Assembly: GCF_000163295.1 (NCBI RefSeq)
Contig: NZ_GG700527.1
Coordinates: 389,453-453,452, forward strand
Reading direction: 5' to 3'
DNA length: 64,000 bases
Source of the DNA: Anaerococcus vaginalis ATCC 51170
Lineage (GTDB): Bacteria > Bacillota > Clostridia > Tissierellales > Peptoniphilaceae
The notes beneath the pieces were generated by a model. The model did no database searches and had not been told where the DNA came from. It saw only the letters and a list, made by a program, of their open reading frames with translations. A program made the position numbers and the translations under genes. Shown here piece after piece: positions 30,765 to 49,616 of the stretch (the first letter of the stretch is position 1; every line of letters begins with the position of its first letter).

Positions 30765-31016
30765 ATGACTTTAATTATAGATAAAGTGAAAAAAATATAC
30801 AAACAAGGAGAAGTAGAAGTCAAAGCAGTAAATGATGTAAGTTTTACTGTTAAGGAAGGAGAATTTTTATCTATTATTGGAGATAGTGGTTCGGGGGACA
30901 GTGATATAATGATGACAGATACAATAAATCCATTAAAATCAAAGTTTAAAGGCTTCCACAAAACTTTTAAACAAGACGATTTAGGATTAAGTCTGTCATC
31001 TTTTTTATTAAATTAG
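30765..31016 (+). pseudogene. Truncated ABC transporter ATPase (MacB/LolD type) with lost Walker A lysine
   Basis: The first 44 codons are a good N-terminus of an export ATPase (LIIDKVKKIYKQGEVEVKAV, then EGEFLSIIGDSGSG). At the point where GSGKST should follow, the sequence reads GSGDSD and all similarity stops. The remaining 38 codons (INPLKSKFKGFHKTFKQDD...) are not ABC-like and I do not recognise them. A deletion fusing two genes near 30897 explains this. An AAGGAGG site upstream shows the start was once real. ATP binding should be lost. Confidence 0.75.
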
Positions 31017-31350: not shown

Positions 31351-31380
31351 ATATAAAAATAAATAGATTAAAACGATGAA

Positions 31381-31413
31381 AAAGAGATAGCAAAATCAAA
31401 GCTATCTCTTTTT
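31381..31413 (+). terminator. Terminator in the repA leader
   Basis: AAAGAGATAGC (31381-31391) and GCTATCTCTTT (31401-31411) form an 11-bp perfect stem with T tract. It ends 10 nt before the repA ribosome site. A 4-codon frame (ATG at 31376, MKKR) stops inside the 5' arm, so a leader-peptide role is conceivable, though it lacks a clear ribosome site. Confidence 0.85.
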
Positions 31414-31436: not shown

Positions 31437-32414
31437 ATGAAAGAAATAGTTAAATTTGAATACTATTATGGCAATGAAGCAGAACAATATTCATTTTTTA
31501 GGATTCCCAAAACTTTATTTACCGACTTAAATTTTAAAAAACTATCCGTAGAAGCAAAAATTCTTTATGGAATTCTACTCGATAGAATGAGCTTGTCAAT
31601 TAAGAATAAATGGTTAGATGAAGAAAACAAGGTATACATCATCTATACCATAGAAGAAATTATGGAAGTATTAAATTGGGGGAGAAATAAATCGGTCAAA
31701 GTAATGAAAGAAATTGAAGAGATAGGATTATTAGAAAAAAAGAGGTTAGGACTTGGAAAGCCAAATTTACTCTATGTAAAGAACTTTATTTACACAGAAA
31801 ATAATAAAACTACAGAAGTTTCAAAAGCAAACCTCAAGAAGTTTAAAAAACAAACTTCAGGAAGTTTAGAAAACAAACCTCAAGAAGTTTCAAAAGAGGA
31901 CTCTAATAATACTAATATTAATAATACTAAAACTAATAATACTGATTTTAATAATACCACCCCCATATCCCCCTTAGAAAAGCTAGGAGAAAAATCAAAA
32001 AAAACTTTGGAGGAGGAAGAATTAAAAGAAACTATAAAAAAGAATATATCTTATGAAACCTTTGAAAAAGTAAGAATAGAAGAAAAGAAGCAAGTAGATG
32101 TAATGATAAATGTACTTGTAAAGGCATTAACTAGCTTTACAAAGATTAAAATAGGAGGGATGCATATATCCAATGAAAATTTTAAAGAAAGATTTCTAAG
32201 TCTTAACTATAAACACATAGACTATGTTTTGAAATACCTAAGAGAAAATGCTCCAAAGGATATTAAAAACATTAATGCCTATCTACTGACTCTCTTATAC
32301 AATGCAGATGAAAATATTAGAAACATAGAAGTCATAAAGAGAGAAGATCAGAAAAGAGAAAATTATGACTATAGTAATGATGAGGATATCTGGAGAGAAA
32401 TTTTAAATACTTGA
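31437..32414 (+). CDS. repA: RepA_N-family replication initiator
   Basis: The N-terminal domain (about 1-120) is the RepA_N winged-helix type (YSFFRIPKTLF, LSVEAKILYGILLDRMSLS, YTIEEIMEVLNWGRNKSVKVM). A low-complexity linker covers about 125-180. A C-terminal domain (about 200-300, NINAYLLTLLYNADENI) resembles those of element-borne RepA proteins. It would bind the origin and start replication of the circular element. The start is chosen at ATG 31437 because AAAGGGGG (31424-31431) gives a 5-nt spacer; ATG 31434 and 31416 are alternatives. The linker-coding DNA carries four 23-bp iterons and an AT-rich repeat, i.e. the probable origin lies inside the gene. Confidence 0.92.
   Translation: MKEIVKFEYYYGNEAEQYSFFRIPKTLFTDLNFKKLSVEAKILYGILLDRMSLSIKNKWLDEENKVYIIYTIEEIMEVLNWGRNKSVKVMKEIEEIGLLEKKRLGLGKPNLLYVKNFIYTENNKTTEVSKANLKKFKKQTSGSLENKPQEVSKEDSNNTNINNTKTNNTDFNNTTPISPLEKLGEKSKKTLEEEELKETIKKNISYETFEKVRIEEKKQVDVMINVLVKALTSFTKIKIGGMHISNENFKERFLSLNYKHIDYVLKYLRENAPKDIKNINAYLLTLLYNADENIRNIEVIKREDQKRENYDYSNDEDIWREILNT
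31815..31906 (+). repeat. Four 23-bp iterons inside repA (probable replication origin)
   Basis: GAAGTTT recurs at 31815, 31838, 31861 and 31884, exactly 23 bp apart. Units 1-3 share GAAGTTT...AAAC(C/T)TCA with inverted arms GAAGTTT/AAACTTC (perfect in unit 2). Because 23 is not a multiple of three, the repeat is read in shifting frames and cannot reflect a protein repeat. RepA_N initiators such as that of pSK41 are known to bind iterons in the middle of their own gene. Confidence 0.85.
31904..31957 (+). repeat. AT-rich 15-bp repeat next to the iterons (possible unwinding region)
   Basis: TAATAATAC starts at 31904, 31919, 31934 and 31949, a strict 15-bp period. It encodes NNT-containing pentapeptides, so a protein-level cause is possible. 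Its place directly beside the iterons and its extreme AT content suit an origin-melting element. Confidence 0.5.
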
Positions 32415-32428
32415 TAGGAGATGAGTAT

Positions 32429-33286
32429 ATGGAGTTAATAAAAGAAATCCTAGAACAGAAAATAAAAAATGCAGAAACAAATAGTCCATCAAATGATGAA
32501 GAAAATAGGAGTTATATAGATCAAGAAACAGGATTAAAATATTGTGCAAAATGTAAAACACCAATTGAAAAAGAAATAGACTTCTTTGGAGAAATAAAAA
32601 AAGTTGGTATTTTATGTCAATGCAAAAAAGAAAGACAAAAATTAGAGGAAGAAAAAAGAAAAGAAAATAAAAGGCTTTTAAAAATTGAACACTTAAAAAA
32701 AGAGTGTTTTTCTGATCCTATCTTATTAAATTGGAATTTTAAAAATATGGACAAAGATAGTGAGCATGAAAAAGTAGCAAAAAACTATGTGGAAAAATTT
32801 GATGAAATATATGAAAATAATATAGGATTAATTCTCACAGGGAATGTGGGATGTGGAAAAACATATCTTGCAAGTTCTATAGCAAATGCTTTACTAGAAA
32901 AAGAAATATCAGTTAAAATGACAAATTTTTCAGTAATTTTAAATGATATGACCAACTTTGAGATTGATAAAAGCAAGTATATAGATAACCTAAATCATAA
33001 GAAACTATTAATTATTGATGATTTTGGAATGGAAAGAGATACAGATTTTGCAGCTGAGCATATCTTTAACATAATAGATAGTAGATATAGAAGTTGGAAA
33101 CCTCTAATTATAACAACAAACTTAAATATATCAGCTTTAACTAATCCTGAAACTATAAAAGATAAAAGAATTTACTCAAGGATACTTGAAATATGCAGTC
33201 CCATTATATTTACAGGAGAAAATAGAAGAATAGAAAAAATGAAGGAGAAATCAAAATTAGCCTATGAAATATTAAAAAAAGAATGA
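32429..33286 (+). CDS. DnaC/IstB-like helicase-loader ATPase with zinc-binding N-terminus
   Basis: Residues 30-65 hold CAKC...CQC, a zinc-knuckle-like element. The AAA+ domain has Walker A GNVGCGKT (138-145), Walker B LLIIDDFG with Asp197 and Asp198, and a sensor region (IITTNLN). Such proteins load the replicative helicase at an origin opened by the initiator. The gene follows repA by 14 nt, the standard replication pair of these elements. ATG 32429 has AGGAG at 32416-32420; a TTG at 32411 is less likely. The length (285) is normal. Confidence 0.9.
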   Translation: MELIKEILEQKIKNAETNSPSNDEENRSYIDQETGLKYCAKCKTPIEKEIDFFGEIKKVGILCQCKKERQKLEEEKRKENKRLLKIEHLKKECFSDPILLNWNFKNMDKDSEHEKVAKNYVEKFDEIYENNIGLILTGNVGCGKTYLASSIANALLEKEISVKMTNFSVILNDMTNFEIDKSKYIDNLNHKKLLIIDDFGMERDTDFAAEHIFNIIDSRYRSWKPLIITTNLNISALTNPETIKDKRIYSRILEICSPIIFTGENRRIEKMKEKSKLAYEILKKE

Positions 33287-33300: not shown

Positions 33301-33792
33301 ATGCAAAATGATGATATAAATAGCAGAACAATAGCCATAGTAAAAAAAGCAAGTATAGTAACAGCCAAGCAAGTTATAAATTTGATGAAGAAAATATTAG
33401 AAATAAATAAACATAAAGCGCAGACAGAACAGTCAAGACCCTTAGAAAAATTTAAAAAAGTAAAAGTAAAAGACCTTGTAAAAAAAGGTAAAGTAGAAAC
33501 CTTAGAATTAAATGACATAGACTTAAAAGCATTGAAAAAAGAACTAAAAAGATATGGCGTGAAATTTTCCATAAAGAAAGATTTAGAAAATGGAAACAAC
33601 ATTATCTTTTTTCAAGCAAAAGATATAAAAGTAATGGAACAGGCTTTTAAAAAGACAGTCCAGAAATTTACTAAAGATAAGTCAAGAAAAAGGAAATCTG
33701 TAATAGAAAGGCTTAATAACTTCAAGGATAAAGTCAAAGATACTATTGACAGTGATAAGGTTAAACATAAGCATCAGGAACAAAGTTTATAA
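33301..33792 (+). CDS. pcfB: PcfB-like (DUF3801) conjugation protein
   Basis: A 163-residue basic protein starting NSRTIAIVKKASIVTAKQVI, with LNDIDLKALKKELKRYGVKFSIKK in the middle and a Lys-rich tail. This is the pattern of PcfB/DUF3801 proteins. In pCF10, PcfB works with the relaxase and the VirD4-type protein PcfC at the transfer origin and channel. Here it precedes virD4 with two small genes between, as usual. AGGTGAGTG upstream serves as ribosome site. Confidence 0.82.
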   Translation: MQNDDINSRTIAIVKKASIVTAKQVINLMKKILEINKHKAQTEQSRPLEKFKKVKVKDLVKKGKVETLELNDIDLKALKKELKRYGVKFSIKKDLENGNNIIFFQAKDIKVMEQAFKKTVQKFTKDKSRKRKSVIERLNNFKDKVKDTIDSDKVKHKHQEQSL

Positions 33793-33833
33793 TAAAAATA
33801 CTTGGCTATATATAATATAGATGATGAGAAGGC

Positions 33834-33973
33834 ATGAATAGCCTTATTGTTGGATACTATGAAAAAGAAGATGGGAGCCATCCAGTAGAAGAATTTCTCT
33901 TATCTATAGATAAAAAATGAGAGAAGAAGCATTAGGAAAGAAACTAAAAGCTACCTTTGAAAGTAAAGTATAA
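33834..33973 (+). pseudogene. Frameshifted HigB/Gp49-like toxin remnant
   Basis: The first frame (NSLIVGYYEKEDGSHPVEEFL...IDKK) resembles the N-terminus of Gp49/HigB-type RelE toxins (...PVEEFLDSLDKKMR...). It stops at TGA 33918. From ATG 33917, one frame over, the reading continues MREEALGKKLKATFES and stops at 33973. The switch falls in an A-run, the classic place for a slip. The core toxin domain and any antitoxin are missing, so this is a dead fragment. Confidence 0.5.
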
Positions 33974-33982
33974 GTGTATGAA

Positions 33983-34186
33983 ATGAAGAAAAATATTTGC
34001 CCAAAATGTAAAAGAAAGATGAAACAACAATTTATAGGATTACTACATTGCAAGTGTGGTATAAGCTATCATAAAGATTTAGGATATTTTAAAAGAAATG
34101 AAAATATGATGTTTGTCTTGGAAAGAAAAAAGATAGGTAAAAAAATAAAACAAGTTCCAGTAATAAGATATAAAAAAGATAAATAG
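33983..34186 (+). CDS. Small zinc-ribbon-like protein
   Basis: A 67-residue protein with CPKCKRK and HCKCG, enough to bind one zinc ion, followed by a basic tail (GKKIKQVPVIRYKK). I do not recognise a named family. ATG 33983 is chosen; a GTG nine bases earlier is equally open and neither has a strong ribosome site. It lies between pcfB and virD4. Confidence 0.6.
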   Translation: MKKNICPKCKRKMKQQFIGLLHCKCGISYHKDLGYFKRNENMMFVLERKKIGKKIKQVPVIRYKKDK

Positions 34187-34204
34187 GATAAATAAGATGC
34201 TAAT

Positions 34205-34228
34205 GGGTAGAGAAATCTACTCTTTTTT
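34205..34228 (+). terminator. Terminator directly before virD4
   Basis: GGGTAGA (34205-34211), GAAA tetraloop, TCTACTC (34216-34222, one G-U pair), six T. The virD4 ribosome site begins 3 nt further on. Confidence 0.8.
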
Positions 34229-34239
34229 ATGGAGAGGAA

Positions 34240-36042
34240 GTGATTGATTCGAAAATACTAAATGAAATAATAAAAGATATAAAAAATGTTTTTAAGATAA
34301 GAGATAAGAAGAAATTTGTATTAGAAAATTTTCCTTACCTCTTATTTTTTTATATAGGAAATATCTTTACAAGCCATGTCAACTCTTATATAGGAGGAGA
34401 TATAATAGATAGAATTCTAGTAGCTTTTAGTCAAATAGATACTTTAAACTATATTCCATCATTAAAAATAAAAAACCTGATACCTGGTCTAATTCTATCA
34501 GTAGTTATTAAGATAATCCTTATACAGAAAAAGAAAAAAGCAAAAAAGTTTAGAGAGGGCAGAGAATATGGATCGGCAAGATGGGGAAATGAGAAAGACA
34601 TTGAGCCATACATTGACAGGAAGTTTGAAAACAATGTGCTACTAACTCAAACTGAAAGACTTACCATGAACAATAGACCTAAAAATCCAAAATATGCTAG
34701 GAATAAAAATGTATTGGTAATTGGAGGTTCTGGTAGTGGTAAAACAAGGTTCTTTGTAAAGCCAAATCTCATGCAAATGCACTCTTCATATGTAGTGACC
34801 GATCCAAAAGGAACATTAGTCCTAGAATGTGGGAAAATGTTGGAAAGAAATGGATATGAGATAAAAATACTAAACACAATAAACTTTAAAAAATCCATGA
34901 GATATAATCCCTTTGCATACTTGAAAAGTGAAAAAGATATTTTGAAATTAGTACAAACAATAATCGCAAATACCAAGGGAGAAGGAGAAAAATCAACTGA
35001 GGATTTTTGGGTGAAAGCTGAAAAACTCTATTACACAGCACTTATAGGATATATCTGGTATGAAGCTCCTAAAGAAGAACAGAACTTTACAACTCTACTT
35101 GCTATGATAGATGCAAGTGAAGTAAGAGAAGAAGATGAAAATTTTAAAAATGCAGTAGACTATATGTTTGAAGCATTAGAAAAAGAAAAGCCAAACCATT
35201 TCGCAGTAAAACAATATAAGAAATACAAACTTGCAGCAGGAAAAACTGCCAAATCAATCCTTATATCCTGTGGAGCAAGGCTTGCTCCTTTTGATATTGA
35301 AGAATTAAGGGATCTTATGAAAGAAGATGAGCTGGAGCTTGATACACTTGGAGAAAAGAAAACAGCTTTATTCGTTATAATATCAGATACAGATGATACA
35401 TTTAACTTTGTAGTATCAATAATGTACTCACAATTATTTAATCTATTATGTGATAAAGCAGATGACGAATACGGCGGAAGACTTCCAGTTCATGTGAGAT
35501 GCCTACTTGATGAATTTGCAAATATCGGCTTAATTCCTAAATTTGAAAAGCTTATTGCAACTATTAGAAGTAGAGAAATATCAGCTTGTATAATATTACA
35601 AGCACAATCACAACTAAAAAGCATCTATAAAGATAATGCCGATACTATAGTTGGCAATTGTGACTCAACACTCTTTCTAGGAGGAAAAGAAAAAACAACA
35701 TTAAAAGAATTATCTGAAAGTTTGGGAAAAGAAACAATAGACCTATATAACACATCGGAAACAAGATCAAATCAAAGGAGTTTTGGTTTAAACTATCAAA
35801 AAACTGGAAAAGAATTAATGAGTCAAGATGAGATAACTGTAATGGATGGTGGGAAATGTATTTACCAATTAAGAGGAGTTAGACCATTTCTTTCAGATAA
35901 ATTTGACATAACCAAACATAAGAATTATAAGTTCCTTGAAGATTATGATAAGAGAAATATATTTGACATAGAGAAATACCTACAGAGAAAAGATGAGGTT
36001 AAGTTAAAAGAGAGTATGGTAGTTGAAATATTAGATGAATAA
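34240..36042 (+). CDS. virD4: VirD4/TraG-type coupling protein
   Basis: The membrane ATPase that recruits the relaxase-DNA complex and feeds it to the channel. The N-terminus carries two membrane segments (FPYLLFFYIGNIF near 30-42; LIPGLILSVVIKIILI near 80-95). Walker A GGSGSGKT is at 162-169, with YVVTDPKG downstream. Walker B LLDEFANIG has Asp424 and Glu425, followed by RSREISACIILQAQSQL. At 600 residues the length is normal. The GTG start is preceded by GGAG at 34231-34234. No counterpart from element A is in the window. Confidence 0.95.
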   Translation: MIDSKILNEIIKDIKNVFKIRDKKKFVLENFPYLLFFYIGNIFTSHVNSYIGGDIIDRILVAFSQIDTLNYIPSLKIKNLIPGLILSVVIKIILIQKKKKAKKFREGREYGSARWGNEKDIEPYIDRKFENNVLLTQTERLTMNNRPKNPKYARNKNVLVIGGSGSGKTRFFVKPNLMQMHSSYVVTDPKGTLVLECGKMLERNGYEIKILNTINFKKSMRYNPFAYLKSEKDILKLVQTIIANTKGEGEKSTEDFWVKAEKLYYTALIGYIWYEAPKEEQNFTTLLAMIDASEVREEDENFKNAVDYMFEALEKEKPNHFAVKQYKKYKLAAGKTAKSILISCGARLAPFDIEELRDLMKEDELELDTLGEKKTALFVIISDTDDTFNFVVSIMYSQLFNLLCDKADDEYGGRLPVHVRCLLDEFANIGLIPKFEKLIATIRSREISACIILQAQSQLKSIYKDNADTIVGNCDSTLFLGGKEKTTLKELSESLGKETIDLYNTSETRSNQRSFGLNYQKTGKELMSQDEITVMDGGKCIYQLRGVRPFLSDKFDITKHKNYKFLEDYDKRNIFDIEKYLQRKDEVKLKESMVVEILDE

Positions 36043-36098
36043 ATTTAAAATTAAATAAGAAGTAAGATAGATATTTAGGAAAGATTAAAAGAAAATAC

Positions 36099-36127
36099 TT
36101 GACAAAAAATATTTTATAACATATAAT
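36099..36127 (+). promoter_or_regulatory. Full-consensus promoter of the abiF RNA
   Basis: TTGACA (36099-36104), 17-nt spacer, TATAAT (36122-36127): both boxes match consensus perfectly. I see no other perfect promoter in the window. Transcription should begin near 36134, just before the structured RNA. Confidence 0.9.
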
Positions 36128-36133
36128 AATTTC

Positions 36134-36180
36134 AACAGCACCCGACACGCCTCTTAACAATGCGGACCAAGTCGGGTCAT
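36134..36180 (+). ncRNA. Structured RNA upstream of abiF (AbiF-RNA-like)
   Basis: ACCCGAC (36140-36146) pairs with GTCGGGT (36171-36177) in a perfect 7-bp stem. It encloses CGC (36148-36150) with GCG (36162-36164) over an 11-nt loop, and a free GACCAA that could join a pseudoknot. It starts about 6 nt after the predicted transcription start and ends about 10 nt before the abiF ribosome site. A conserved RNA upstream of abiF genes has been described. An RNA-antidote role for such RNAs against HEPN toxins is known from related work; applying it here is inference. Confidence 0.7.
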
Positions 36181-36198
36181 TTGATTTTAGGAGAAAAA

Positions 36199-37065
36199 AT
36201 GAAAAAAATTCATCAAGAACCGATTAGTATAGAAAATCAAGTAAAAAATTTAATAGACTTAGGACTTTTAGTAGAAGATAAAACTTATGCTAAGAAAATT
36301 CTTGGAAGAATATCCTATTACAGGCTGATTAAAGCTTATAGTATCACATTAAAAAAAGATGGAAGATATATATCAGGAATAAGTTTTGAAGATATTGTAA
36401 GTTTATATAAATTTGATAGAGAACTTAGACAACTCATATTTGAAATAATAGAACATATTGAAGTTTCTTTAAGAGCAGTTATCACAAACTATTTTTCTTT
36501 AAAATATGGAAATTTTGGCTACAAAGATTTGTCAAATGTGGGAAAATATAAAAACAGATATAAAGAAGCATTAAATGATTTAGAAAGAGAAACAAAAAGA
36601 AATAGACGCTCACCATTTATAAAAAACTTTAAAGACAATTATGAAGGTGGAGAAATTCCGCTCTATGCAGTGATAGAAGTAGCAAGTTTTGGAACTTTAT
36701 CTAAAATGTATAAAAATATGAAAAATGAAGATAAAAGTAAAATTGCAAAAGTCTTTCATACAGACTACCATTACTTTGAATCTTGGATAGAAAATTTTGC
36801 CTATATAAGAAATATATGTGCCCATTATGGCAGGCTATATGGAGCAAAGCTTACAAAATCACCAAAGCTATATAAAGAATATTTAAAAAAGAATATTTCA
36901 AACAATACAATATTTGCTACATTAGTTAATCTTAAAATAGTTTCTGAAGAAGAAAATTACAAAAAATTTTATCATGATCTAACGGAACTAATAGCAAGAT
37001 ATGAAAATATTGAACTAAGGCATGTTGGCTTTATAGAAAACTGGAAAGAATTACTAAAACCATAA
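36199..37065 (+). CDS. abiF: Abi_2 family (AbiD/AbiF-type) abortive-infection HEPN protein
   Basis: A 288-residue helical protein of the Abi_2 family (family length about 300). Landmarks are the N-terminal QVKNLIDLGLLV, ISYYRLIKAY, YKFDRELRQLIFEIIEHIEVSLRAVI and, near the C-terminus, the HEPN RNase motif Arg204-x4-His209 in YIRNICAHYGRLY. It probably cleaves RNA and halts growth on phage infection, kept in check by the RNA just upstream. The start is ATG 36199 behind AGGAG (36189-36193). An in-frame ATG at 36160 lies in the RNA structure and should not be used. It is inserted between virD4 and the SSB-like gene and has its own promoter and terminator, so it is a self-contained cargo unit. Confidence 0.88.
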   Translation: MKKIHQEPISIENQVKNLIDLGLLVEDKTYAKKILGRISYYRLIKAYSITLKKDGRYISGISFEDIVSLYKFDRELRQLIFEIIEHIEVSLRAVITNYFSLKYGNFGYKDLSNVGKYKNRYKEALNDLERETKRNRRSPFIKNFKDNYEGGEIPLYAVIEVASFGTLSKMYKNMKNEDKSKIAKVFHTDYHYFESWIENFAYIRNICAHYGRLYGAKLTKSPKLYKEYLKKNISNNTIFATLVNLKIVSEEENYKKFYHDLTELIARYENIELRHVGFIENWKELLKP

Positions 37066-37083
37066 AATTAAATAGAGAAATTT

Positions 37084-37113
37084 ACACCGAAAAAAACATT
37101 TCGGTGTTTTTTT
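37084..37113 (+). terminator. Terminator after abiF
   Basis: ACACCGAAA (37084-37092) pairs perfectly with TTTCGGTGT (37099-37107), then a T tract. Confidence 0.9.
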
Positions 37114-37131
37114 ATTCCCAAAGGAGGAAGA

Positions 37132-37164
37132 ATGAAATATATACGAGATGAGCCGAAAAAATAA
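37132..37164 (+). CDS. Possible leader peptide (10 codons)
   Basis: ATG 37132 has AAGGAGG (37121-37127) 4 nt upstream and encodes MKYIRDEPKK before TAA. It is followed 40 nt later by a terminator (37205). Good ribosome site plus short frame plus terminator is the layout of a transcription attenuator. Alternatively it is the stump of a decayed gene. No longer frame continues. Confidence 0.35.
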   Translation: MKYIRDEPKK

Positions 37165-37204
37165 GATACAGAGAAAAATGAAATATTAATGAATTAGAAG
37201 TAGA

Positions 37205-37232
37205 AGCGATAGAGAAAACTATCGCTTTTTTT
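37205..37232 (+). terminator. Terminator before the SSB-like/Maff2/VirB6 operon
   Basis: AGCGATAG (37205-37212) pairs perfectly with CTATCGCT (37219-37226), six-nt loop, T tract. The next ribosome site (AAGGAG) begins at 37241. Confidence 0.88.
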
Positions 37233-37255
37233 ATGGAATAAAGGAGATAGAACAA

Positions 37256-37579
37256 ATGGAAAGAGAAATGCTAAATATTAATGGAAATCTAGTAGGAGAA
37301 ATAAAAACAACTGCAATAGATACAAAGGAAGGAGAAAAAGAGGTAGCTAACTTCACAATAGTTAGGAAGAACAAAGAAGAAGGAAAGGTTAAAAAAGAAT
37401 ATATCTACTGTAATCTCTACGGGGAAAAGGCAAAAAGTGTGAAGGAATTTAAAAGTGGAGAATACATCCATATTTTTGGATATTTTAAGGAAACAAAAAA
37501 AGAAGACAAGACATTTAAAAATTTTATAGTAAAGCACATAAATAAAATTGAAAAAGAAGAAAAAGAGGAGGAAATATAA
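37256..37579 (+). CDS. Small SSB-like OB-fold protein
   Basis: A 107-residue protein (LNINGNLVGEIKTTAID...VANFTIVRKN...YIYCNLYGEKAKSV...GEYIHIFGYF, in pieces) with the strand pattern of SSB OB folds, ending in Lys/Glu repeats. It may bind single-stranded element DNA. It directly precedes maff2 (ATG immediately after the stop). It is distinct from the larger SSB-like protein at 63382. Confidence 0.75.
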   Translation: MEREMLNINGNLVGEIKTTAIDTKEGEKEVANFTIVRKNKEEGKVKKEYIYCNLYGEKAKSVKEFKSGEYIHIFGYFKETKKEDKTFKNFIVKHINKIEKEEKEEEI

Positions 37580-37795
37580 ATGGAATTTTTTACACAAGCA
37601 GTAAATGTATTAAAAATATTAGTTACAGCAATTGGTGCAGGACTTGGAGCATGGGGTGTTATCAACCTGATGGAAGGTTATGGGAATGACAACCCTGGTG
37701 CTAAATCTCAAGGTATAAAGCAGCTTATGGCTGGAGGGGGAATTGTACTCATAGGTTTAAAACTAATACCGCTATTAGCAAACGTGTTAAAATAA
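37580..37795 (+). CDS. Maff2 family small membrane protein
   Basis: A 71-residue protein with two membrane helices (ILVTAIGAGLGAWGVINLM; GGGIVLIGLKLIPLLANVL) joined by a polar loop. This is the Maff2 family found before the VirB6-like gene in Tn1549-type elements. Its size and two-helix form resemble VirB2/TrbC pilins, so it may be the pilin-like channel part; that is inference. It starts directly at the stop of the SSB-like gene. Confidence 0.85.
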   Translation: MEFFTQAVNVLKILVTAIGAGLGAWGVINLMEGYGNDNPGAKSQGIKQLMAGGGIVLIGLKLIPLLANVLK

Positions 37796-37796
37796 A

Positions 37797-38660
37797 ATGT
37801 TTAATATAGTAGATAAGATCAAAGAGTTTTTTTCGGAGATACTTATTGATATGATCAAGGAAAATTTAAGCGGAATGCTCCTTGATATAAATGACAAAGT
37901 ATCAACGATAGCAAATGAGGTAGGAAAGACTCCGAGTGGATGGAACTCGGAGGTTTTCCACTTCATAAAGTCTATTTCAGAAAATGTTATACTTCCCATA
38001 GCAGGTCTTATCATAACGGCTGTACTATGTATTGAATTAATTCAAATGGTAATGAACAAAAATAATATGCATGACACAGATACCTTTGATTTTTTTAAAT
38101 ATATGATAAAAATGTGGATAGCAGTATGGCTTGTATCTCATGCTTTTGACTTTTCTATGGCAGTATTTGATGTGGCACAGAATTTAATAGGAAAGGCAGC
38201 AGGTGTGGCAAATGCTAGTGCAAAAGTTTCTCCAGGTGATATAGCTAATATGGTAGATAGCCTAAAAGGAGAGTCAATAGGAAAATTAATGACTATAGTA
38301 CTAGAGACATCAATTGTAAAGATGATAATTCAAGGGATATCAATACTAATTACAGTTATTCTATACGGCAGGATGATAGAAATATATATTTATACTTCAG
38401 TTTGCGCCATACCTTTTGCCACAATGGGTAATAAAGAATGGGGAAGTATTGGAACAAACTATATAAGAGGGCTCTTCGCACTTGGCTTGCAAGGTTTATT
38501 CCTACTTATATGCGTAGGAATTTATGCCGTACTTGTTAAGACTTTAAATATATCAGACATACACAAAAGTATTTTTGAATTACTAGGATACACCTTAATA
38601 CTTGGTATAACTATGATGAAATCAGGAAGTATTGCAAAATCAATTTTAAATGCTCATTAA
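37797..38660 (+). CDS. VirB6/TrbL-like multi-helix channel protein (CD1112-like)
   Basis: A 287-residue polytopic membrane protein with about six helices (VILPIAGLIITAVLCIELIQM; MWIAVWLVSHAFDF; IVKMIIQGISILITVILYG; GLFALGLQGLFLLICVGIYA, and others). Such proteins form the inner-membrane pore of type IV secretion systems. It starts one base after the maff2 stop, so the two are cotranslated. An N-terminal amphipathic segment (1-50) precedes the first helix. Confidence 0.85.
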   Translation: MFNIVDKIKEFFSEILIDMIKENLSGMLLDINDKVSTIANEVGKTPSGWNSEVFHFIKSISENVILPIAGLIITAVLCIELIQMVMNKNNMHDTDTFDFFKYMIKMWIAVWLVSHAFDFSMAVFDVAQNLIGKAAGVANASAKVSPGDIANMVDSLKGESIGKLMTIVLETSIVKMIIQGISILITVILYGRMIEIYIYTSVCAIPFATMGNKEWGSIGTNYIRGLFALGLQGLFLLICVGIYAVLVKTLNISDIHKSIFELLGYTLILGITMMKSGSIAKSILNAH

Positions 38661-38674
38661 TAAAAAAGGAGAAG

Positions 38675-38935
38675 ATGATGAAAATTAGAAGAAAAAAGGA
38701 CAAAAAAATTAATTTAAAAACACTTGGAACAATAGGACTCCCAATACTTTTAATAGGGGGATATATTACAAGAGAAATACAAAATAGAATGATTATAAGA
38801 AAAACATTGGAAGTTTTAGATAATAGAGAAGAAACGAATGAAAAAGTCTTAGAAATAGCAGTGAATATGGGAAAATCATTAGAAGATCTGAACAGAGAAG
38901 ACATATATGGCTTTTACTTAGAGGGTTTAGAATAA
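38675..38935 (+). CDS. Small single-helix membrane protein of the transfer operon
   Basis: Eighty-six residues: a basic start (KIRRKKDKKINLK), one membrane helix (TIGLPILLIGGYI), then a charged helical tail (REETNEKVLEIAVNMGKSLED). I do not recognise a family. Its stop overlaps the prgI start (TAATG), so it belongs to the channel operon. Ribosome site AAAGGAGAAG precedes tandem ATGs at 38675 and 38678. Confidence 0.65.
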   Translation: MMKIRRKKDKKINLKTLGTIGLPILLIGGYITREIQNRMIIRKTLEVLDNREETNEKVLEIAVNMGKSLEDLNREDIYGFYLEGLE

Positions 38936-39273
38936 TGGCTTATGTAAATGTCCCAAAGGACTTAACAAAAGTAAAAACAAAGGTAGCTCTAAATCTAACA
39001 AAAAGACAATTAATTGGCTTTACAATTGCAGGTCTAATAGGCTTTCCAGTATATTTAATGGTAAAAAAAGTGCTGCCTAATGACCTATCTATGTTAATTA
39101 TGATAGGTGTGTCTTTTCCTATAATATTTGCAACTCTTTATGAAAAGGACGGGATCTATTTTGAAAAATATTTAAAGTATATTATAGATAAGAAAAGACA
39201 GACAAGTATAAGGATATACAAGACAGAATGTATTTATGATATAAAGAAACAAAGAAAGGAAAGGAGTAAATGA
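38935..39273 (+). CDS. prgI: PrgI family T4SS protein (element B)
   Basis: A 112-residue protein with conserved start YVNVPKDLTKVKTKVALNLT and two membrane helices (QLIGFTIAGLIGFPVYLMV; LSMLIMIGVSFPIIFATLY), then a basic cytoplasmic tail. It is regarded as the VirB3 equivalent. Its end overlaps virB4 by 4 nt (ATGA). Confidence 0.9.
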   Translation: MAYVNVPKDLTKVKTKVALNLTKRQLIGFTIAGLIGFPVYLMVKKVLPNDLSMLIMIGVSFPIIFATLYEKDGIYFEKYLKYIIDKKRQTSIRIYKTECIYDIKKQRKERSK

Positions 39274-41765
39274 ATCAAATACAGAAAAAACAACAGAAAA
39301 AATTAAATCAAGAAAAAAGAAATTTAAAAAAACAAAAAGAAGATTTAAAAAGCATTAGTATAAGTCAAAAAAAGATGAAAAAAGCAAATATTTCTAAAGA
39401 AAAAGGAAAGCCCAAAAAGAAGCTTTCCTTTTTTGGTGGGAAGAAGAAAAAGAGCGTTCAGGAAACAATCCCTTATTTAAGAATGTTGAGAAATGGGATT
39501 TGCCAAGTTGAGAAGAACAAATTTAATAAAATGATACGTTTTTTAGATATTAACTACCAGCTTTCAACAGAAGAAGATAAGGAAAGTATATTTAATGAAT
39601 TTTCAAGTTTTTTAAACTATTTTGATCCAAGTGTTGATATAGAACTTTCATATATTAATCGCATAGGAAAAAATGAAGAAGTAGAAAAAAACATCAATGT
39701 TCCGGATAGAAACGATTCATATAATGAAATACGAAAAGAGTACAGGGAAATGCTAAAAAATCAGAGTCAAAAAGGAAATAATGGACTTACTAAATATATG
39801 TATATAACCTTTAGCTTACAAGCACAAGATTTAAAAGAGGCAACTACAAGACTTGAAAGAATGGAAATGGATATATTAAATAACTTTAAGCAGATGGGAG
39901 TAAAAGCTTATGTATTAAGTGGATATGAAAGGTTAAAGGTTATTCACGATATCTTAAATCCAAATAAGAATTTTGTTTTTTCATTTGAAGACCTAAAATA
40001 TAGTGGACTATCTACTAAGGATTATATAGTACCAGCATCATTTAACTTTTCATCTAACAATCAATTTAAAATTGGAGAATACTTTGGAGAAGTAAACTTT
40101 CTACAAATTCTAGCACCTGAATTATCAGATAGATTATTATCAGAATTTTTAGGAGTTGAAGAAAATATGATTGTAACATTTCATATAAATTCCATTGATC
40201 AAACAGAAGCTATAAAGATGATTAAAAGAAAAATAACAGACTTGGATAAAATGAAAATTGAAGAAAATAAGAAGGCTATAAGATCAGGATATGATATTGA
40301 TATTCTTCCAAGCGATTTAATTACCTATGGTAATGATGCTAAGAAACTGTTAGTAGAACTTCAAAATCATAATGAGAGAATGTTTGTCATAACTATTTTG
40401 TTTACAAATATGGAAAAAAGTAGAAAGAAATTGAGTAATATAATTTTTCAACTAAATTCAATAGCAGGTAGACATAATTGTGTATTGAAAAATCTTAACT
40501 ATAGACAGGAACAAGGACTAATTTCCTCCCTGCCACTCGGAAAAAATGAAATCGAAATAAAAAGAGGACTTACAACTAGCTCTACAGCAGTCTTTATTCC
40601 TTTTACAACAGAAGAGCTGTGCTTAGAAGGAGAGAGCTTATACTACGGATTAAATGCTTTAAGTCGTAACATTATTATGACAGATAGAAAGCTTTTAAAG
40701 AATCCAAACGGTTTAATACTTGGAACGCCTGGTAGTGGTAAATCTTTTTCGGCTAAAAGAGAAATTACCAATGCTTTTTTAATCACACAAGATGACATCA
40801 TTATATGTGATCCGGAAGGGGAGTATGGAAATTTAACTAAGGCACTAGGTGGAGAAGTTATAAAAATATCGCCAACAAGTAAGGATTATATAAACCCGTT
40901 GGATATAAATGTAGACTATGCCGATGAAGACAATCCCTTATCTTTAAAGTCTGACTTTATTCTTTCACTGTTTGAACTTGTAGTAGGAAAGGAAGGGTTA
41001 AGTGCAGAAGAAACTTCAGTAATTGATAGATGTCTTCCAATATTATATAAGAATTACTTCGACAATCCTATTCCTGAAAATATGCCAATTTTAGAAGATT
41101 TATATAATTTACTTTTAAAACAAGAAGAAAAGGTAGGGAAAAAATTAGCAGTAGAAATGGAAATTTATGTCAAAGGTAGTCTTAATGTATTTAACCATAG
41201 GACTAATGTAGATACAGGCAATAGAATTCTTTGCTATGACATTAAGGAATTAGGAAAGCAACTTAGAAAAATAGGTATGTTAATTGTTCAAGATCAAGTA
41301 TGGAACAGAGTAACTATTAATAGGAATAAGAAGGAAACCAGATATTACTGTGACGAATTCCATTTGCTTTTAAGAGAAGAACAAACAGCCTCATATTCCA
41401 TAGAAATCTGGAAAAGATTTAGAAAATGGGGTGGGATTCCAACAGGATTAACACAAAATGTAAAGGACCTTTTAGCCAGTCCTGAAATAGAAAATATATT
41501 TGATAACACAGATTTTATCTTAATGCTTAATCAAGCTAGTGGTGATAGGGAAATTTTAGCGAACAAGTTAAATATATCTCTTTATCAGTTATCCTATGTA
41601 ACAAATTCCAATGAGGGAGAGGGATTACTATTCTACGGAAACACAATAGTACCTTTTGTAGATAGATTCCCTAAAGATACAAAATTGTATAAGTTAATGA
41701 CAACTAAACCAGAAGAATTAAAGGAAGGGATAGAAATTGATAGACAGAGAGAAGTTAAAAACTAA
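39270..41765 (+). CDS. virB4: VirB4/TraE-type conjugation ATPase (element B)
   Basis: An 831-residue paralogue of the protein at 93-2516: same basic N-terminus, same order of motifs, Walker A GTPGSGKS (485-492), Walker B CDPEGEY, then YCDEFHLLL and GIPTGLTQNVKDLL. The two proteins are clearly homologous but differ at many positions, far more than the two surface proteins do. Its 3' end overlaps the methylase start by 29 nt. Confidence 0.95.
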   Translation: MNQIQKKQQKKLNQEKRNLKKQKEDLKSISISQKKMKKANISKEKGKPKKKLSFFGGKKKKSVQETIPYLRMLRNGICQVEKNKFNKMIRFLDINYQLSTEEDKESIFNEFSSFLNYFDPSVDIELSYINRIGKNEEVEKNINVPDRNDSYNEIRKEYREMLKNQSQKGNNGLTKYMYITFSLQAQDLKEATTRLERMEMDILNNFKQMGVKAYVLSGYERLKVIHDILNPNKNFVFSFEDLKYSGLSTKDYIVPASFNFSSNNQFKIGEYFGEVNFLQILAPELSDRLLSEFLGVEENMIVTFHINSIDQTEAIKMIKRKITDLDKMKIEENKKAIRSGYDIDILPSDLITYGNDAKKLLVELQNHNERMFVITILFTNMEKSRKKLSNIIFQLNSIAGRHNCVLKNLNYRQEQGLISSLPLGKNEIEIKRGLTTSSTAVFIPFTTEELCLEGESLYYGLNALSRNIIMTDRKLLKNPNGLILGTPGSGKSFSAKREITNAFLITQDDIIICDPEGEYGNLTKALGGEVIKISPTSKDYINPLDINVDYADEDNPLSLKSDFILSLFELVVGKEGLSAEETSVIDRCLPILYKNYFDNPIPENMPILEDLYNLLLKQEEKVGKKLAVEMEIYVKGSLNVFNHRTNVDTGNRILCYDIKELGKQLRKIGMLIVQDQVWNRVTINRNKKETRYYCDEFHLLLREEQTASYSIEIWKRFRKWGGIPTGLTQNVKDLLASPEIENIFDNTDFILMLNQASGDREILANKLNISLYQLSYVTNSNEGEGLLFYGNTIVPFVDRFPKDTKLYKLMTTKPEELKEGIEIDRQREVKN

Positions 41766-42702
41766 CTATATTATTAATTTAGATGCAATTTCTGCTCTAA
41801 AGGAATTTCCAGATAAAATATTTGATTGCTGTATTACATCTCCTCCATATTATGGACTTAGAGACTATAAAGCAGAAGGACAAATTGGAAGAGAAGAAAG
41901 TCCGGAGGAATATTTAAATAAATTAATTGAAGTCTTTAGAGAAGTAAAAAGAGTATTAAAAAAAGAAGGAACACTTTGGGTAGTTATTGGAGATTCTTAT
42001 GCAGGGACAAGAAGCAAAAAAGAATATAAAGATCCTAAAAACATAGAAGGAAGAAGTGGTCAAAAAGAGTTTATTACAGAAAAACTCAGTGGCTACAAGG
42101 CAAAAGATTTAATGGGGATACCTTGGCAACTAGCTTTAAAATTAAGAGAGGACGGTTGGTATTTACGAAGCGATATTATTTGGCATAAGGAAAATGCCAT
42201 GCCTGAGTCTTGTAGAGATAGACCATCAAGGTCCTATGAACATATCTTCCTACTATCAAAAGCAAGAAAGTATTTCTATAACTTTGACGCGATGAAAGAA
42301 CCAATAAAAGAAATAAGCAAGAAAAGATATATGAGGGCAAGAGGAAAAGATAATAAGTATTTACAAGAAGGTACAGGAGCTAAAAGACAGAGCATAAATG
42401 AAGCAAGAGAGTATGGAGAATATATAGGAGATAATGTCCCTAAGTTTAGAAACAATAGAGATATTTGGACTATTAACACCAGTGCATTTAAAGGAAAACA
42501 CTATGCTGTATTTCCACCAAAACTGGTAGAACTTTGTATAAAAGCAGGATGTCCTAAAAAAGGCTTAATTATTGATCCCTTTATGGGTTCAGGAACTGTT
42601 GGAATGGTAGCTATTAGGATGGACAGAGAATATATTGGAATTGACATAAACAAAGACTACTGTCAAATAGCTAAAGAAAGGATTGAAAAAAATATGAAAT
42701 AG
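41737..42702 (+). CDS. DNA methyltransferase, beta class with SPPY motif
   Basis: Motif IV SPPY at 35-38 comes first and motif I DPFMGSGT at 280-287 last, with the target-recognition region between: the beta order. SPPY is commonest in N4-cytosine methylases but also occurs in N6-adenine enzymes, so the product base is open. At 321 residues the length is normal. TTG start at 41737 with GGAAGGG upstream, inside the end of virB4. No restriction partner is adjacent; an anti-restriction role for the element is likely. Element A has no gene at this place, where only 7 nt separate virB4 and NlpC/P60. Confidence 0.88.
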   Translation: MIDREKLKTNYIINLDAISALKEFPDKIFDCCITSPPYYGLRDYKAEGQIGREESPEEYLNKLIEVFREVKRVLKKEGTLWVVIGDSYAGTRSKKEYKDPKNIEGRSGQKEFITEKLSGYKAKDLMGIPWQLALKLREDGWYLRSDIIWHKENAMPESCRDRPSRSYEHIFLLSKARKYFYNFDAMKEPIKEISKKRYMRARGKDNKYLQEGTGAKRQSINEAREYGEYIGDNVPKFRNNRDIWTINTSAFKGKHYAVFPPKLVELCIKAGCPKKGLIIDPFMGSGTVGMVAIRMDREYIGIDINKDYCQIAKERIEKNMK

Positions 42703-42711
42703 GAGGTATAT

Positions 42712-45678
42712 ATGAAAAAGAAAGGGAAAGTAAACCCAAGAGATGTACCAAAGACCAAGCTTATATCAGGAAAGAAAGAAGAAAGTAATGAAAAATTCAG
42801 TGATACAGAGAGACCATTAGATTTTTCAAAAAAAGAAATAAATAAAGTAAAAAGCAGGAACAACATAGACAATAATGTTGAAAACTCTAAATATTACTCA
42901 GATCATTTGCAAGAAAATAGTCAGGATTTATTCAAAGAAAAAGAAAAGCCAAATAGAGAAAGAAGACAAAGAAAAATCCATGAGGAAAAATTTGCAGAAT
43001 CCTCCTATCATAATGAATATCAGCCGGAATATTCGCAATGGCAGCATAGAAAAATGGAAGAAAATGAGGAAAGTAGATATGGTGAATATCACGGGCAAGA
43101 AACAGAATATAGGCTAAGTAATTTTAAAGAAGATTTTAATAATGGAGTAATTTCAACTAACTCTAATATAAAAAGTAGCATTTCTCCCCAAAAAAATTAC
43201 AAGGGGAATAGTAATTTAAAATTGAAGAAAAACGTTGAGAGTGAAAGTTTTAATGATGTGCCAGATAAAAAAATAAGGAGATTTAGAAAAGAAGAAGATA
43301 AGAATTTTAATATAGAGGTAAGTTCAACATATGATCCCTTATCGCAGGACTCAGATAATGATGGTGTCATAGATCGCTATGACATGAACTTTAGTGATAG
43401 CAATGTATCATATAGGGACACAAGAGATGACTATAAGTATTTACCATCTTCTGATGTGCAAAGAAAAAATTGGGATGGTTCTTCTATTCTTGGTAATAAA
43501 GGGAAAGAAAGCTTTCAAAAAAACACCTTAAAAAAACTTTATCAATCTCAAAGTCAGTTTAAGGACAAAGGGGAAAAAGCAGAATTAAAATCTTTAAATG
43601 GGAAGTTTAGAAGAAAAGACTTATCATATAAGGCAAATGAAGAAGATAAAAAAATAATTCAAGATCTGAATACTAATAAAAAACAAAATAGCAAATATTT
43701 CAAAGGCAAAGTTAGAAATTTAGAAGAAAAAAATATGCTAATGGGTAGGGTTTCTAGTGGGAAATTTAGACAGGATAGCCTATCTGAAGGATTTAAAAGT
43801 GAATCTGAAAAAAATAAAGATAAATATAATATAAATAAAAAGAATCAAGAAAAAATAGGCACGAAAAAAGAAATCTTCAAACAGGAAAAAAACGTAATAA
43901 AAAATGAGAATCTTGAAGTAGATGAACTTGATTTAAATCATAGTGGAATTTCTAATAAAAACAAGGGAAAGAAAAGACAAATAAAAGACGCTTTTGATAA
44001 TACTATAAAGAAAAGCAACTTTGATCCAAAGAAAGAATACACCAGGACAAAAAAAGAAGTACAGGATTCTAAAAATGTATCTGAAGAAAATAAGGTAGAT
44101 ACAAAAAATAAAACTAAATTCCATTCTAAAAAAGATAACAAAAGTGAAAAAGATAAGTTTTATAAAAAGGAAGATAAAGTATCAAAACTATATGAGAAAA
44201 AGAATAAAAAGGAAAAAGAGTTAATTAAGGATAAGAAAAAGTCAAAAAAAGCGGGTTTAGAAAAACCTATTACTTTTGCGAGTGCTATGACGGCAAACTA
44301 TCTATATAGTGGGAAAGATGATAATGCAGGCGTTAACGCTGCTTATAAGCTTAGTAGAACTACCGAAGTTGTAGGCAGAGAAATTAGCCATTTTAGAAGA
44401 AAAAAACCTTTAAAAACTCAAAGAAAAATAAAATCTTTAGAAGGAAAAATTTATAAGAAAGAAAGTAAACTCCTCTTTCAAAGAAATTTTGAAGAATTGA
44501 AGAAGACTAAAGCTTATCAAAACTCTAATAAATTGAATCGATTTTTTATGAAAAAGAAGTTTCAGAGAGATTTTAGGAAGAAACACGGGGAAGGTTTAGT
44601 AAATAGAATAAAGAAATCTTTCGCTAATATTGGAAAGAAAACATTGGAAGTTTTAAAAAACAAAGGATATAAGCAAATTTTAATTGCTCTTTGTATTTTA
44701 GGACTTTTTTTTATGCTATTTCAAGGAATTAGCAATGTTGGCAGTCTTACTTCAGGATTAACAAGTAATGTTATAGCTACAAGCTATCTATCAAAAGAAG
44801 AAGTTTTAATGGATATTAATAATGAATTTACAAGTTATGAATATGCATTACAAGATGAAATAGATAGTATTAAAGAAAATTATCCAAATTATGATGAATA
44901 TCATATAAAAGGAGATTCTGTTGGTCATGATCTACACGAGCTTTTTAGCTATTTAACAGCAAGATATGGAGAGATTAAGTCAGCTGAAGAGATACAAAAG
45001 GAATTAAAAAAACTATTTAATCAAATGTATGAGAAAAAATATACTTCAAAGTCTATTACAAAATATGACAGTGAAGGAAATCCATATACCTATAGAATTC
45101 TAACATTAACTATAAAAAAGAAAAGTGTTGATGAAATAGCAAGAGAAGAATTTGCAAACTATGAAACAAATATGGCTCATTATTTAGCTTTACTTGATAG
45201 TCAGGGAAATATGAGTGGATATTTTGGATCAAGCTATGGGAACTTGGGAGAGATTATAGACAATCCAAACTTTGGAAATCCCGGTCTTGCTTTTGATTCT
45301 GAAACTGCCAAAGCCTTATTTAATGAAGCAGAAAAGCATATAGGTAAAAGATATGTGTTTGGAGCAAGTGGACCATCTAACTTTGACTGTTCAGGTTTTG
45401 TATGTTGGTCATTTACAAAGTCTGGTGTAAAGAGAATGCCAAGAACTACAGCTTGGCTTATTTATAAAAACTATTGTAATCCAATATCTCCAAGCGAGGC
45501 AAAACCTGGGGATATTATTTTCTTTAAAGGCACATATAATTCCGGTACGCCAATTTCTCACGTAGGGATATATGCCGGAAATGGAATGATGCTCCATGCA
45601 GGAGATCCTATCCAATATACCAGTATAAACTCAAGATACTGGAAAAATCACTTTTATTCCTTTGGTAGACCAAAATAA
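42712..45678 (+). CDS. NlpC/P60 cell-wall hydrolase of the conjugation machine (element B)
   Basis: A 988-residue protein. Residues 1-640 are charged, low-complexity and mostly disordered. Near 206-230 they contain a calcium-loop-like motif (DPLSQDSDNDGVIDRYD) that also ends the giant helicases of both elements but is missing from the element A hydrolase. A membrane helix lies near 654-674 (ILIALCILGLFFMLF). The extracellular part ends in NlpC/P60 with Cys893, His950 and His962. It opens the wall for DNA transfer by family analogy. Ribosome site AGGAGG precedes ATG 42712; it follows the methylase by 9 nt. Confidence 0.9.
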   Translation: MKKKGKVNPRDVPKTKLISGKKEESNEKFSDTERPLDFSKKEINKVKSRNNIDNNVENSKYYSDHLQENSQDLFKEKEKPNRERRQRKIHEEKFAESSYHNEYQPEYSQWQHRKMEENEESRYGEYHGQETEYRLSNFKEDFNNGVISTNSNIKSSISPQKNYKGNSNLKLKKNVESESFNDVPDKKIRRFRKEEDKNFNIEVSSTYDPLSQDSDNDGVIDRYDMNFSDSNVSYRDTRDDYKYLPSSDVQRKNWDGSSILGNKGKESFQKNTLKKLYQSQSQFKDKGEKAELKSLNGKFRRKDLSYKANEEDKKIIQDLNTNKKQNSKYFKGKVRNLEEKNMLMGRVSSGKFRQDSLSEGFKSESEKNKDKYNINKKNQEKIGTKKEIFKQEKNVIKNENLEVDELDLNHSGISNKNKGKKRQIKDAFDNTIKKSNFDPKKEYTRTKKEVQDSKNVSEENKVDTKNKTKFHSKKDNKSEKDKFYKKEDKVSKLYEKKNKKEKELIKDKKKSKKAGLEKPITFASAMTANYLYSGKDDNAGVNAAYKLSRTTEVVGREISHFRRKKPLKTQRKIKSLEGKIYKKESKLLFQRNFEELKKTKAYQNSNKLNRFFMKKKFQRDFRKKHGEGLVNRIKKSFANIGKKTLEVLKNKGYKQILIALCILGLFFMLFQGISNVGSLTSGLTSNVIATSYLSKEEVLMDINNEFTSYEYALQDEIDSIKENYPNYDEYHIKGDSVGHDLHELFSYLTARYGEIKSAEEIQKELKKLFNQMYEKKYTSKSITKYDSEGNPYTYRILTLTIKKKSVDEIAREEFANYETNMAHYLALLDSQGNMSGYFGSSYGNLGEIIDNPNFGNPGLAFDSETAKALFNEAEKHIGKRYVFGASGPSNFDCSGFVCWSFTKSGVKRMPRTTAWLIYKNYCNPISPSEAKPGDIIFFKGTYNSGTPISHVGIYAGNGMMLHAGDPIQYTSINSRYWKNHFYSFGRPK

Positions 45679-45697
45679 GGGGAAGGAGTAAAAATCT

Positions 45698-45955
45698 ATG
45701 AATAAAAAATTAATCAGAAACATAGAAAAACAGAAGAAATTAAGAAAGAAAAAAGAAGAAATTGAAATAGAACTTCAGTTATTAGTAGAGGAACAAGAAG
45801 AAATAGAAAATTTAGAGGTCATCAAGGAATTTCGAAGTCGAAAAATATCTCTTGATGAATTTTTATTTATTGTTAGAAAAAATAAGGAAGAAGAAAATAG
45901 AGAAAGACAAGAACTTAAAAAAAAAGATATAAATGAAAGTGAGGAAAATTTATGA
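45698..45955 (+). CDS. DUF4315-like small coiled-coil protein (element B)
   Basis: An 85-residue Lys/Glu-rich coiled protein (NKKLIRNIEKQKKLRKKKEE...), the counterpart of 5118-5357. Ribosome site AAGGAG precedes ATG 45698. Its stop overlaps the surface-protein ATG by 4 nt. Function unknown. Confidence 0.75.
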   Translation: MNKKLIRNIEKQKKLRKKKEEIEIELQLLVEEQEEIENLEVIKEFRSRKISLDEFLFIVRKNKEEENRERQELKKKDINESEENL

Positions 45956-48306: not shown

Positions 48307-48321
48307 GAAAAGGAGATAACT

Positions 48322-49200: not shown

Positions 49201-49406
49201 TCTTCTCAATGATTTAAGCAGTAGATTAAGGACAACAATAAACTCAATTATCGTGTAAATTTATAAAAAAAGTACAATTAGAATTCTGGAACTTTAATAA
49301 AAAACGATGAACAAAACGACAGCACAAACTTAATATATAAGTAAAGCTAAGTTGAAATGATTGATTGTATAATTAAGAATTTGATATAGATAAAATCATA
49401 AGTTTA

Positions 49407-49547
49407 ATGAGAATGCTAAAAACGGATCAAGCTTTTTTATACAGATGGAATTCTTATTCGAAGAAAAATCTTTATGTTAGAGACATAAAGTTTGAAGATG
49501 TAATAGATAATGGAATAAATATTATAGAAAAAATAAAAAATCAGTAG
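49407..49547 (+). pseudogene. Short frame, possible gene remnant
   Basis: Forty-six codons (RMLKTDQAFLYRWNSYSKKN ... NGINIIEKIKNQ, in pieces) with protein-like composition but no ribosome site. The frame is open upstream to a TAA at 49374-49376. Family not recognised; it may be the end of a lost gene. Confidence 0.3.
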
Positions 49548-49559
49548 AGCTATAAAAAG

Positions 49560-49593: not shown

Positions 49594-49616
49594 ATTAAAA
49601 AATTAAAGGAGGAAAA

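Follow-up and report, generated by a model that had tools for sequence, protein, structure and literature searches.

Introduction

RepA_N replicons account for about 80% of 160 theta plasmids of Staphylococcus aureus, according to the passages of PMC5703833 that deal with these plasmids. The same passages describe pSK41, in which four Rep boxes in the middle of rep are bound by the Rep N-domain; the origin is placed inside the coding sequence of rep, at these boxes. The encoded linker is dispensable, and the C-terminal domain of pSK41 Rep is DnaD-like and binds DnaG (PMC5703833, same passages). RepA_N genes are also carried by integrated conjugative elements (ICEs) of the Tn5252/Tn1549 group, for which episomal replication has been suggested; the section of PMC4701971 on these elements states, citing Guerillot 2013, that it has been reported for TnGBS. 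Two further systems resemble the locus described here in part. In Streptococcus phage CHPC931 (L100), too, a gene with a helicase-loader annotation comes after the RepA_N gene; this locus differs in having just two weak 22-bp units and a best lag of 14. The PLE satellites of Vibrio cholerae are integrated elements for which RepA_N and an iteron both appear in the literature, a likeness drawn from partial descriptions.

Any extrachromosomal replication of such ICEs would decide their stability after excision, their control, and whether two of them can share a cell. In this study, we analyzed a repA gene with internal repeats in a 64-kb window, meaning the whole stretch of DNA that was analyzed (64,000 nucleotides). 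Like the Tn5252/Tn1549-group ICEs and TnGBS, it belongs to a conjugative element carrying a RepA_N gene. The ICEs in the relevant section of PMC4701971 are streptococcal and are described there with no in-gene iteron array, whereas the ICE of the window probably comes from a Peptoniphilus relative. The array is a probable further case of the known in-gene RepA_N origin design. The new part is the covariation between recognition helix and repeat arms, which held in lineages fetched after it had been proposed. A literature search on in-gene iterons in RepA_N ICEs, with the main RepA_N plasmid papers outside its reach, found no paper; a search on the RepA_N recognition helix found none on RepA_N specificity, its one match being, in the text retrieved, about another protein.

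Materials and methods

RepA_N genes were sampled from public genomes, plasmids, phage records, and viral contigs. The final tally comprised 182 genes whose products extend at least 60 residues beyond the N-domain, grouped into 62 lineages at 80% N-domain identity. An array was scored as significant when the 22/23-bp self-match after the N-domain exceeded that of all 100 synonymous shuffles over lags 12-40; L183 and L199 were significant when lags 22/23 were considered by themselves but no longer so once all lags were included. In an earlier tally of 133 genes, 15 truncated or partial genes were removed ahead of clustering, and the second-largest cluster (28 members) scored as non-significant because it was represented by an aberrant ORF, L124.

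The covariation test asked whether lineages sharing an N-domain residue also share arm bases. It covered 80 variable columns in 28 lineages and was restricted to the 369 lineage pairs with less than 65% identity. Thirteen of 51 representatives were left out before motif registration, as they had no 22/23-bp array. From the 38 arrays, 28 were kept after four with weak cores (L070, L072, L100, and L156) and six near-duplicates had been dropped. The hold-out set consisted of 17 new lineages fetched later; four without a significant array were dropped and 13 were tested.

Results and discussion

The repA gene lies in an integrated conjugative element

The window is part of contig C6 (1,884,085 bases) of a 1,891,767-base genome. 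Similarity to 23 of 25 relatives starts at 30,838-30,896, and that to L025 and L026 starts later. The left end interrupts the Walker-A codons of an ABC-type gene, the remainder of which is found at about C6:504,165. Since the halves of this gene lie at both junctions, the element is integrated, and the two junctions give an estimated length of ~84 kb. The start of repA is ~540 bp inside the left end. Three Resolvase-family (serine-recombinase) matches at C6:498172-502064, near the right end, may be the recombinases that act on this element. A tyrosine integrase for the element was considered and rejected, as the two PF00589 matches of the genome fall outside it.

Pfam matches at 33301-51320 comprise a VirD4-type coupling protein, TrbL/VirB6, Maff2, DUF3801, a CD1107-like protein, NlpC/P60, and a topoisomerase, a conjugation gene set that we take to mark the Tn1549/Tn5252 group. 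ORFs of 470 aa and 122 aa at L103:8924-10704 resemble a relaxase and an accessory protein (named by eye). The features of the repA locus are listed in Table 1.

Table 1. Positions of the element end, repA, and associated features in the window.
Feature	Position	Strand	Basis
Element left end, junction GGGG / GACAGTGATATAATG; exact base uncertain within the G run	30897		Similarity start of relatives; junction reading
Terminator-like hairpin just 5' of the repA ribosome-binding site	31379..31413	+	13-bp perfect arms; core dG -9.9
repA, 325 aa (RepA_N domain, disordered linker, DUF6017 domain)	31437..32414	+	Pfam profile matches; AlphaFold2 model
Recognition-helix codons, aa 83-96 (83 R; 84 N = 31686-31688; 85 K)	31683..31724	+	AlphaFold2 model; arm covariation
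Iteron dyad 1 (left arm degenerate), AAAACTACAGAAGTTT	31806..31821	+	Sequence reading
Iteron dyad 2, AAACCTCAAGAAGTTT	31829..31844	+	Sequence reading
Iteron dyad 3, AAACTTCAGGAAGTTT	31852..31867	+	Sequence reading
Iteron dyad 4, AAACCTCAAGAAGTTT (same 16-mer as dyad 2)	31875..31890	+	Sequence reading
A+T-rich 15-bp repeats (three-plus; NNTxx codons)	31903..31957	+	TRF 31904-31957, period 15, score 80
DnaC/DnaI-like (IstB-type) helicase-loader gene adjoining repA	32429..33286	+	PF01695, 9e-13

A 23-bp array inside repA is constrained at the DNA level

The original prediction held that four GAAGTTT motifs with inverted-repeat arms recur at 23-bp steps inside repA, and that selection there acts on DNA rather than on protein. 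GAAGTTT was found at 31815, 31838, 31861, and 31884, so the step is exactly 23 bp. Tandem Repeats Finder placed the array at 31814-31895 (period 23, 3.6 copies, score 122), at the top of 85 rows for the window. The inverted arms are also present and can be described more closely: each unit is a dyad, AAACyTC-n-rGAAGTTT, with a 16-mer core centred on TCnrGA. The first dyad is degenerate, and the array effectively begins at 31806, its four 23-bp units running to 31906.

The lag-23 self-match score of the array was 43. When synonymous codons were shuffled with the protein fixed, the best score over lags 12-60 had a mean of 19.2 and a maximum of 32; codon shuffles of repA reached at most 24, and in neither case did any of 1000 shuffles attain 43. 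The runner-up short-period repeat of the window scored 37 (600-base windows, lags 12-60). A chance origin of the array was therefore ruled out by the shuffles together with the window-wide scan. Since 23 is not a multiple of 3, neighbouring units are translated in different frames; this out-of-frame period and the synonymous shuffles support selection on DNA.

A scan of public genomes with the window RepA returned 31 loci, 25 of which keep the GAAGTTT array, and with it the predicted 23-bp spacing (all four units in 24 of them; in L021 a run of N follows the second). The six loci without the motif (L028-L033) are only 36-52% identical to the window RepA. Arrays of 22/23 bp with other arms are significant in L028, L030, and L032; the 23-bp signal is weak in L029, L033 has no signal, and L031 ends early at a contig edge. 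The protein is 97-99% identical in 20 of the 25 array-keeping relatives, which therefore hold little information on selection. At third codon positions, comparison with L025, a more distant relative, showed 20/21 conserved in the dyad cores versus 179/275 elsewhere (Fisher p = 0.003); the corresponding values against L024 were 18/21 and 223/275 (p = 0.78). The proposed check on synonymous sites thus favoured constraint in the first comparison and was neutral in the second.

RepA and the features around the array

The N-domain of RepA matched PF06970 (1.2e-29, 102.5 bits against a cut-off of 30, aa 19-92), and the C-terminal DUF6017 domain matched PF19481 (1.1e-15, aa 166-296). The N-domain was modelled with confidence, and Foldseek matched it to 4PQL (E = 1.9e-8), the 5KBJ Rep-DNA complex (3.5e-7), 4PT7, and 4PTA. 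By these profile and fold matches, the repA product is a RepA_N initiator with a predicted winged HTH, as had been proposed. The linker (aa 120-187), which includes the iteron-encoded part, is of low confidence in the model and presumably disordered. In this it is like the linker reported as dispensable in the pSK41 passages of PMC5703833; the likeness to pSK41 is drawn from its description, and sequence comparison was made with L096 and L209.

Modelled alone, the C-terminal domain had a pTM of 0.71. A DnaD-like fold was not adopted for this domain, because Foldseek and VIA-align gave no convincing match and the RepA C-domain entry 4PQK was weakly matched. A profile search of solved sequences with this domain gave no relevant match.

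The A+T-rich 15-bp repeats 3' of the array are a candidate unwinding region. Among 20 genes with arrays, chosen by hand, the A+T content of the 60 nt 3' of the array (0.733) exceeded that of the remainder of the gene (0.667; Wilcoxon p = 0.0007), from which the array itself did not differ. The 15-bp repeats were in codon frame at all 13 loci with the motif (38 examined). As they are always in frame, a peptide-level cause is enough to account for them, and DNA-level selection on them is unsupported by the reading-frame test. Of 34 lineages with sufficient flanking sequence, 10 have the loader gene beside repA, and a helicase loader as a general partner of repA was discarded on that count.

In-gene arrays recur across the RepA_N family

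A significant 22/23-bp in-gene array was present in 34 of the 62 lineages (32 at 23 bp and two at 22 bp), plus the window gene, whose own lineage scored as non-significant because its representative, L021, is N-masked. The best lag exceeded all shuffles in 37 lineages, at 23 bp in 30, at 22 bp in two, and at 14, 15, 33, 33, and 36 in the others. In 28 of the 62 lineages the representative had no significant 22/23-bp array, seven of these being borderline (p = 0.02-0.08). The genes of pCF10 (L094), Lactococcus (L097), and Lactobacillus (L178) gave no array signal; in L178 an array had been looked for to test an arm prediction.

Of 24 testable loci in a later set of viral contigs, which include some duplicates of each other or of known lineages, 18 reached p ≤ 0.01 at lag 23. 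The first viral-contig scan, with the window protein as the sole query, gave no relative, and searches around further genomes added only relatives of known genes and one short partial gene.

In most array-bearing lineages the array starts about 15-130 nt past the N-domain codons. Arm sequences vary strongly between lineages, while array position and period persist; the 23-bp period is common to plasmid, chromosomal, and phage-like-contig genes with other arms. The units share a core, TCnAGA, which in the 22-bp lineages is the odd dyad TCAGA; exact core frequencies are biased towards it, because unit registration was seeded with a TCnAGA-type core.

Two of these genes connect the array to solved structures. 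The RepA N-domain of the pSN32 plasmid gene (L096) is identical to solved chain 4PTA over 131 residues, and a 23-bp array lies just past its N-domain codons (score 48; at most 33 in shuffles). L209, which encodes the 5KBJ protein, has a four-unit array at the same place (score 64, shuffle maximum 32), composed of GAAGTTCGAAAATCGAACGTCCA units at 23 bp with four GAAGTTCGA sites. This agreement in place and period lends support to the proposed pSK41-like in-gene design. The window thus shares with these staphylococcal theta plasmids a RepA_N protein, about four dyads past the N-domain codons, a 23-bp period, and a TCnAGA-type core. It differs from them in lying in an integrated conjugative element, in its arms (GAAGTTT, versus GAAATGT or GAAGTTCGA in L096 and L209), in its C-terminal domain (DUF6017, versus PF18008 Bac_RepA_C in L096), and in the DnaC/DnaI-like loader gene next to repA.

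The recognition helix covaries with the repeat arms

Residue 84 ranked first in the covariation test and residue 85 second, with family-wise errors of 0.010 and 0.023 for arm positions 3-9 in 28 lineages, which is the unselected test. For arm positions 6-8, picked after inspection of the helix-arm table, the error for residue 84 was 0.0003, and residues 82 and 85 came next. In the hold-out set compared with the old lineages, residue 84 was first of 84 columns (0/5000 permutations for both position choices); as in the tests above, the permutations do not model phylogeny or descent. Among seven strict arm predictions written before fetching, four held (L183, L165, L188, and L181) and those for L174, L177, and L191 failed, L191 being without a significant array. 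The prediction made before the gene of the 5KBJ protein was fetched, that E at residue 84 goes with TCG in the arm, proved correct.

The pairings were as follows: D84 with CGG or CCG arms (TTCGG, TTCCG, or GTCGG), Q84 with (G/A/T)TGA, E84 with TTCGA or TCGG, [G/K]82-[R/K]83-N84-K85 with GTTTG, and KPT/KPV with GTAAAA or GTTAAAA. N84-K85 was also found with other arms (L127, L143, L148, L152, and L173), and arms of the CGG or CCG type were likewise seen with K84 or T84 (L089, L153, L155, and L170). On these sequences, residue 84 alone does not determine the arm. Helix residues 82-85 may instead act jointly, with 84 foremost, to set the outer iteron bases around a TCnAGA-like core. We cautiously lean towards such a RepA_N specificity code, by which the incompatibility group would be readable from one gene.

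If the code is true, a single gene would reveal the incompatibility group of a RepA_N plasmid, ICE, or phage, and helix-arm covariation could allow compatibility groups to be predicted from sequence in RepA_N replicons. A second RepA_N gene of the same genome (L001:1459-2229; C6:367315) has D84, different arms, and a 23-bp period. The window and L001 origins would accordingly be distinct, and under the code the co-resident ICEs (N84 and D84 in this genome) would stay compatible through this difference. The helix-arm covariation is good indirect evidence that every RepA recognizes the array of the gene that encodes it.

A putative origin and its alternatives

The data are best explained by a theta-type origin (oriV) in the part of an ICE repA that encodes the linker, and the array is very probably its RepA-binding core. 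The computational basis of this reading consists of the repeats and the constraint on their DNA, the assignment of RepA to its family, a period and position that recur, and the covariation of helix and arms. By analogy with pSK41 Rep, the gene most likely serves as a theta origin to which its own product binds.

The best-surviving alternative, which we consider improbable, is that the array is a RepA-binding operator or a copy-control or incompatibility locus, acting as a roadblock or by handcuffing, with initiation elsewhere in the element. RepA binding there would account equally well for the repeats and for the helix-arm covariation, and the terminator-like hairpin 5' of repA suggests that expression may be regulated. 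A terminator-like hairpin with a T-run shortly 5' of the repA start was found in 16 of 58 lineages versus 0.9% of mononucleotide shuffles, and that of the window is a possible attenuator of repA. The sites, however, are ~370 nt inside the gene, away from its start, with an A+T-rich stretch 3' of them. The closest system that has been studied, pSK41, has its ori at the Rep boxes in rep (PMC5703833, passages on this plasmid).

It is less probable still that the array is a relic, an idle inherited origin in an element that now persists by integration alone. All 23 copies with a readable left end are integrated, and the contig of the window is chromosome-sized, as a relic would have it. Against this, all of the 25 close relatives but L026 match RepA over its full length (residues 1-325), and the array is kept; in L026, at a contig end, the match spans 10-325. 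DNA identity in the repA region is ~95-98% for most of these 25 relatives, which span several genera of anaerobes, so the element is mobile now or was so recently. The conserved third positions of the dyad cores relative to L025 also argue against an idle array.

A purely protein-level reading, in which slippage produced a repetitive disordered linker that is retained for the sake of the protein and DNA binding plays no part, fits the place of the array in a disordered, poorly conserved linker and the in-frame 15-bp repeats nearby, but is hardly credible given the out-of-frame period, the synonymous shuffles, a period that recurs though arms and peptide change, and arms that track the recognition helix.

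If the array is the core of an origin, RepA would bind each 16-bp dyad in the cell as a winged-helix dimer through its recognition helix. Residues 82-85 would help to select the outer arm bases, and most members would read the shared TCnAGA-like core. The 23-bp phasing, about two helical turns, would allow contact between adjacent dimers, and the A+T-rich stretch just 3' of the array would melt. The C-terminal domain and the neighbouring DnaC/DnaI-like loader would bring in helicase and primase, and the excised or transferred circular element may then copy itself outside the chromosome until it reintegrates. The exact 100-bp array, the initiator, and the arm-tracking residue make the question of ICE replication directly testable. 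The original prediction presented such autonomy as notable for a Tn1549-like element; the surprise is smaller than stated, because RepA_N genes in Tn1549-family ICEs and their suggested episomal replication are already in print (PMC4701971, section on these elements).

Further observations on the element and its relatives

In all 23 copies with a readable left end (the window, L003-L005, L007-L024, and L027; L006, L025, and L026 were left out), the left end directly follows in-frame GxxGxG codons. The interrupted ATPase genes are mostly of the ABC type by eye and mostly different genes, with L003/L007 and L008/L016 alike. The integration site thus seems to be the coding sequence of a protein motif, the Walker-A P-loop.

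Two near-identical repA copies occur at different places of one contig in Mediannikoviicoccus vaginalis (L012/L016) and in Peptoniphilus harei (L014/L017). With two same-type copies per genome, integration tolerates elements of the same type.

The N-domain and iteron block is joined to at least three C-terminal parts: DUF6017, a part of ~80 aa without a Pfam match above the cut-off, and PF18008 (for example, in the window, L001, and L096).

Possible cargo was seen at two places. An Abi_2-like gene lies in the conjugation region (window 36160-37062; PF07751, 3e-54) and may be abortive-infection cargo. Cargo at L103:11743-14794 and in L104 resembles non-ribosomal peptide biosynthesis genes, with thioesterase, adenylation, condensation-like, and carrier domains recognized by eye.
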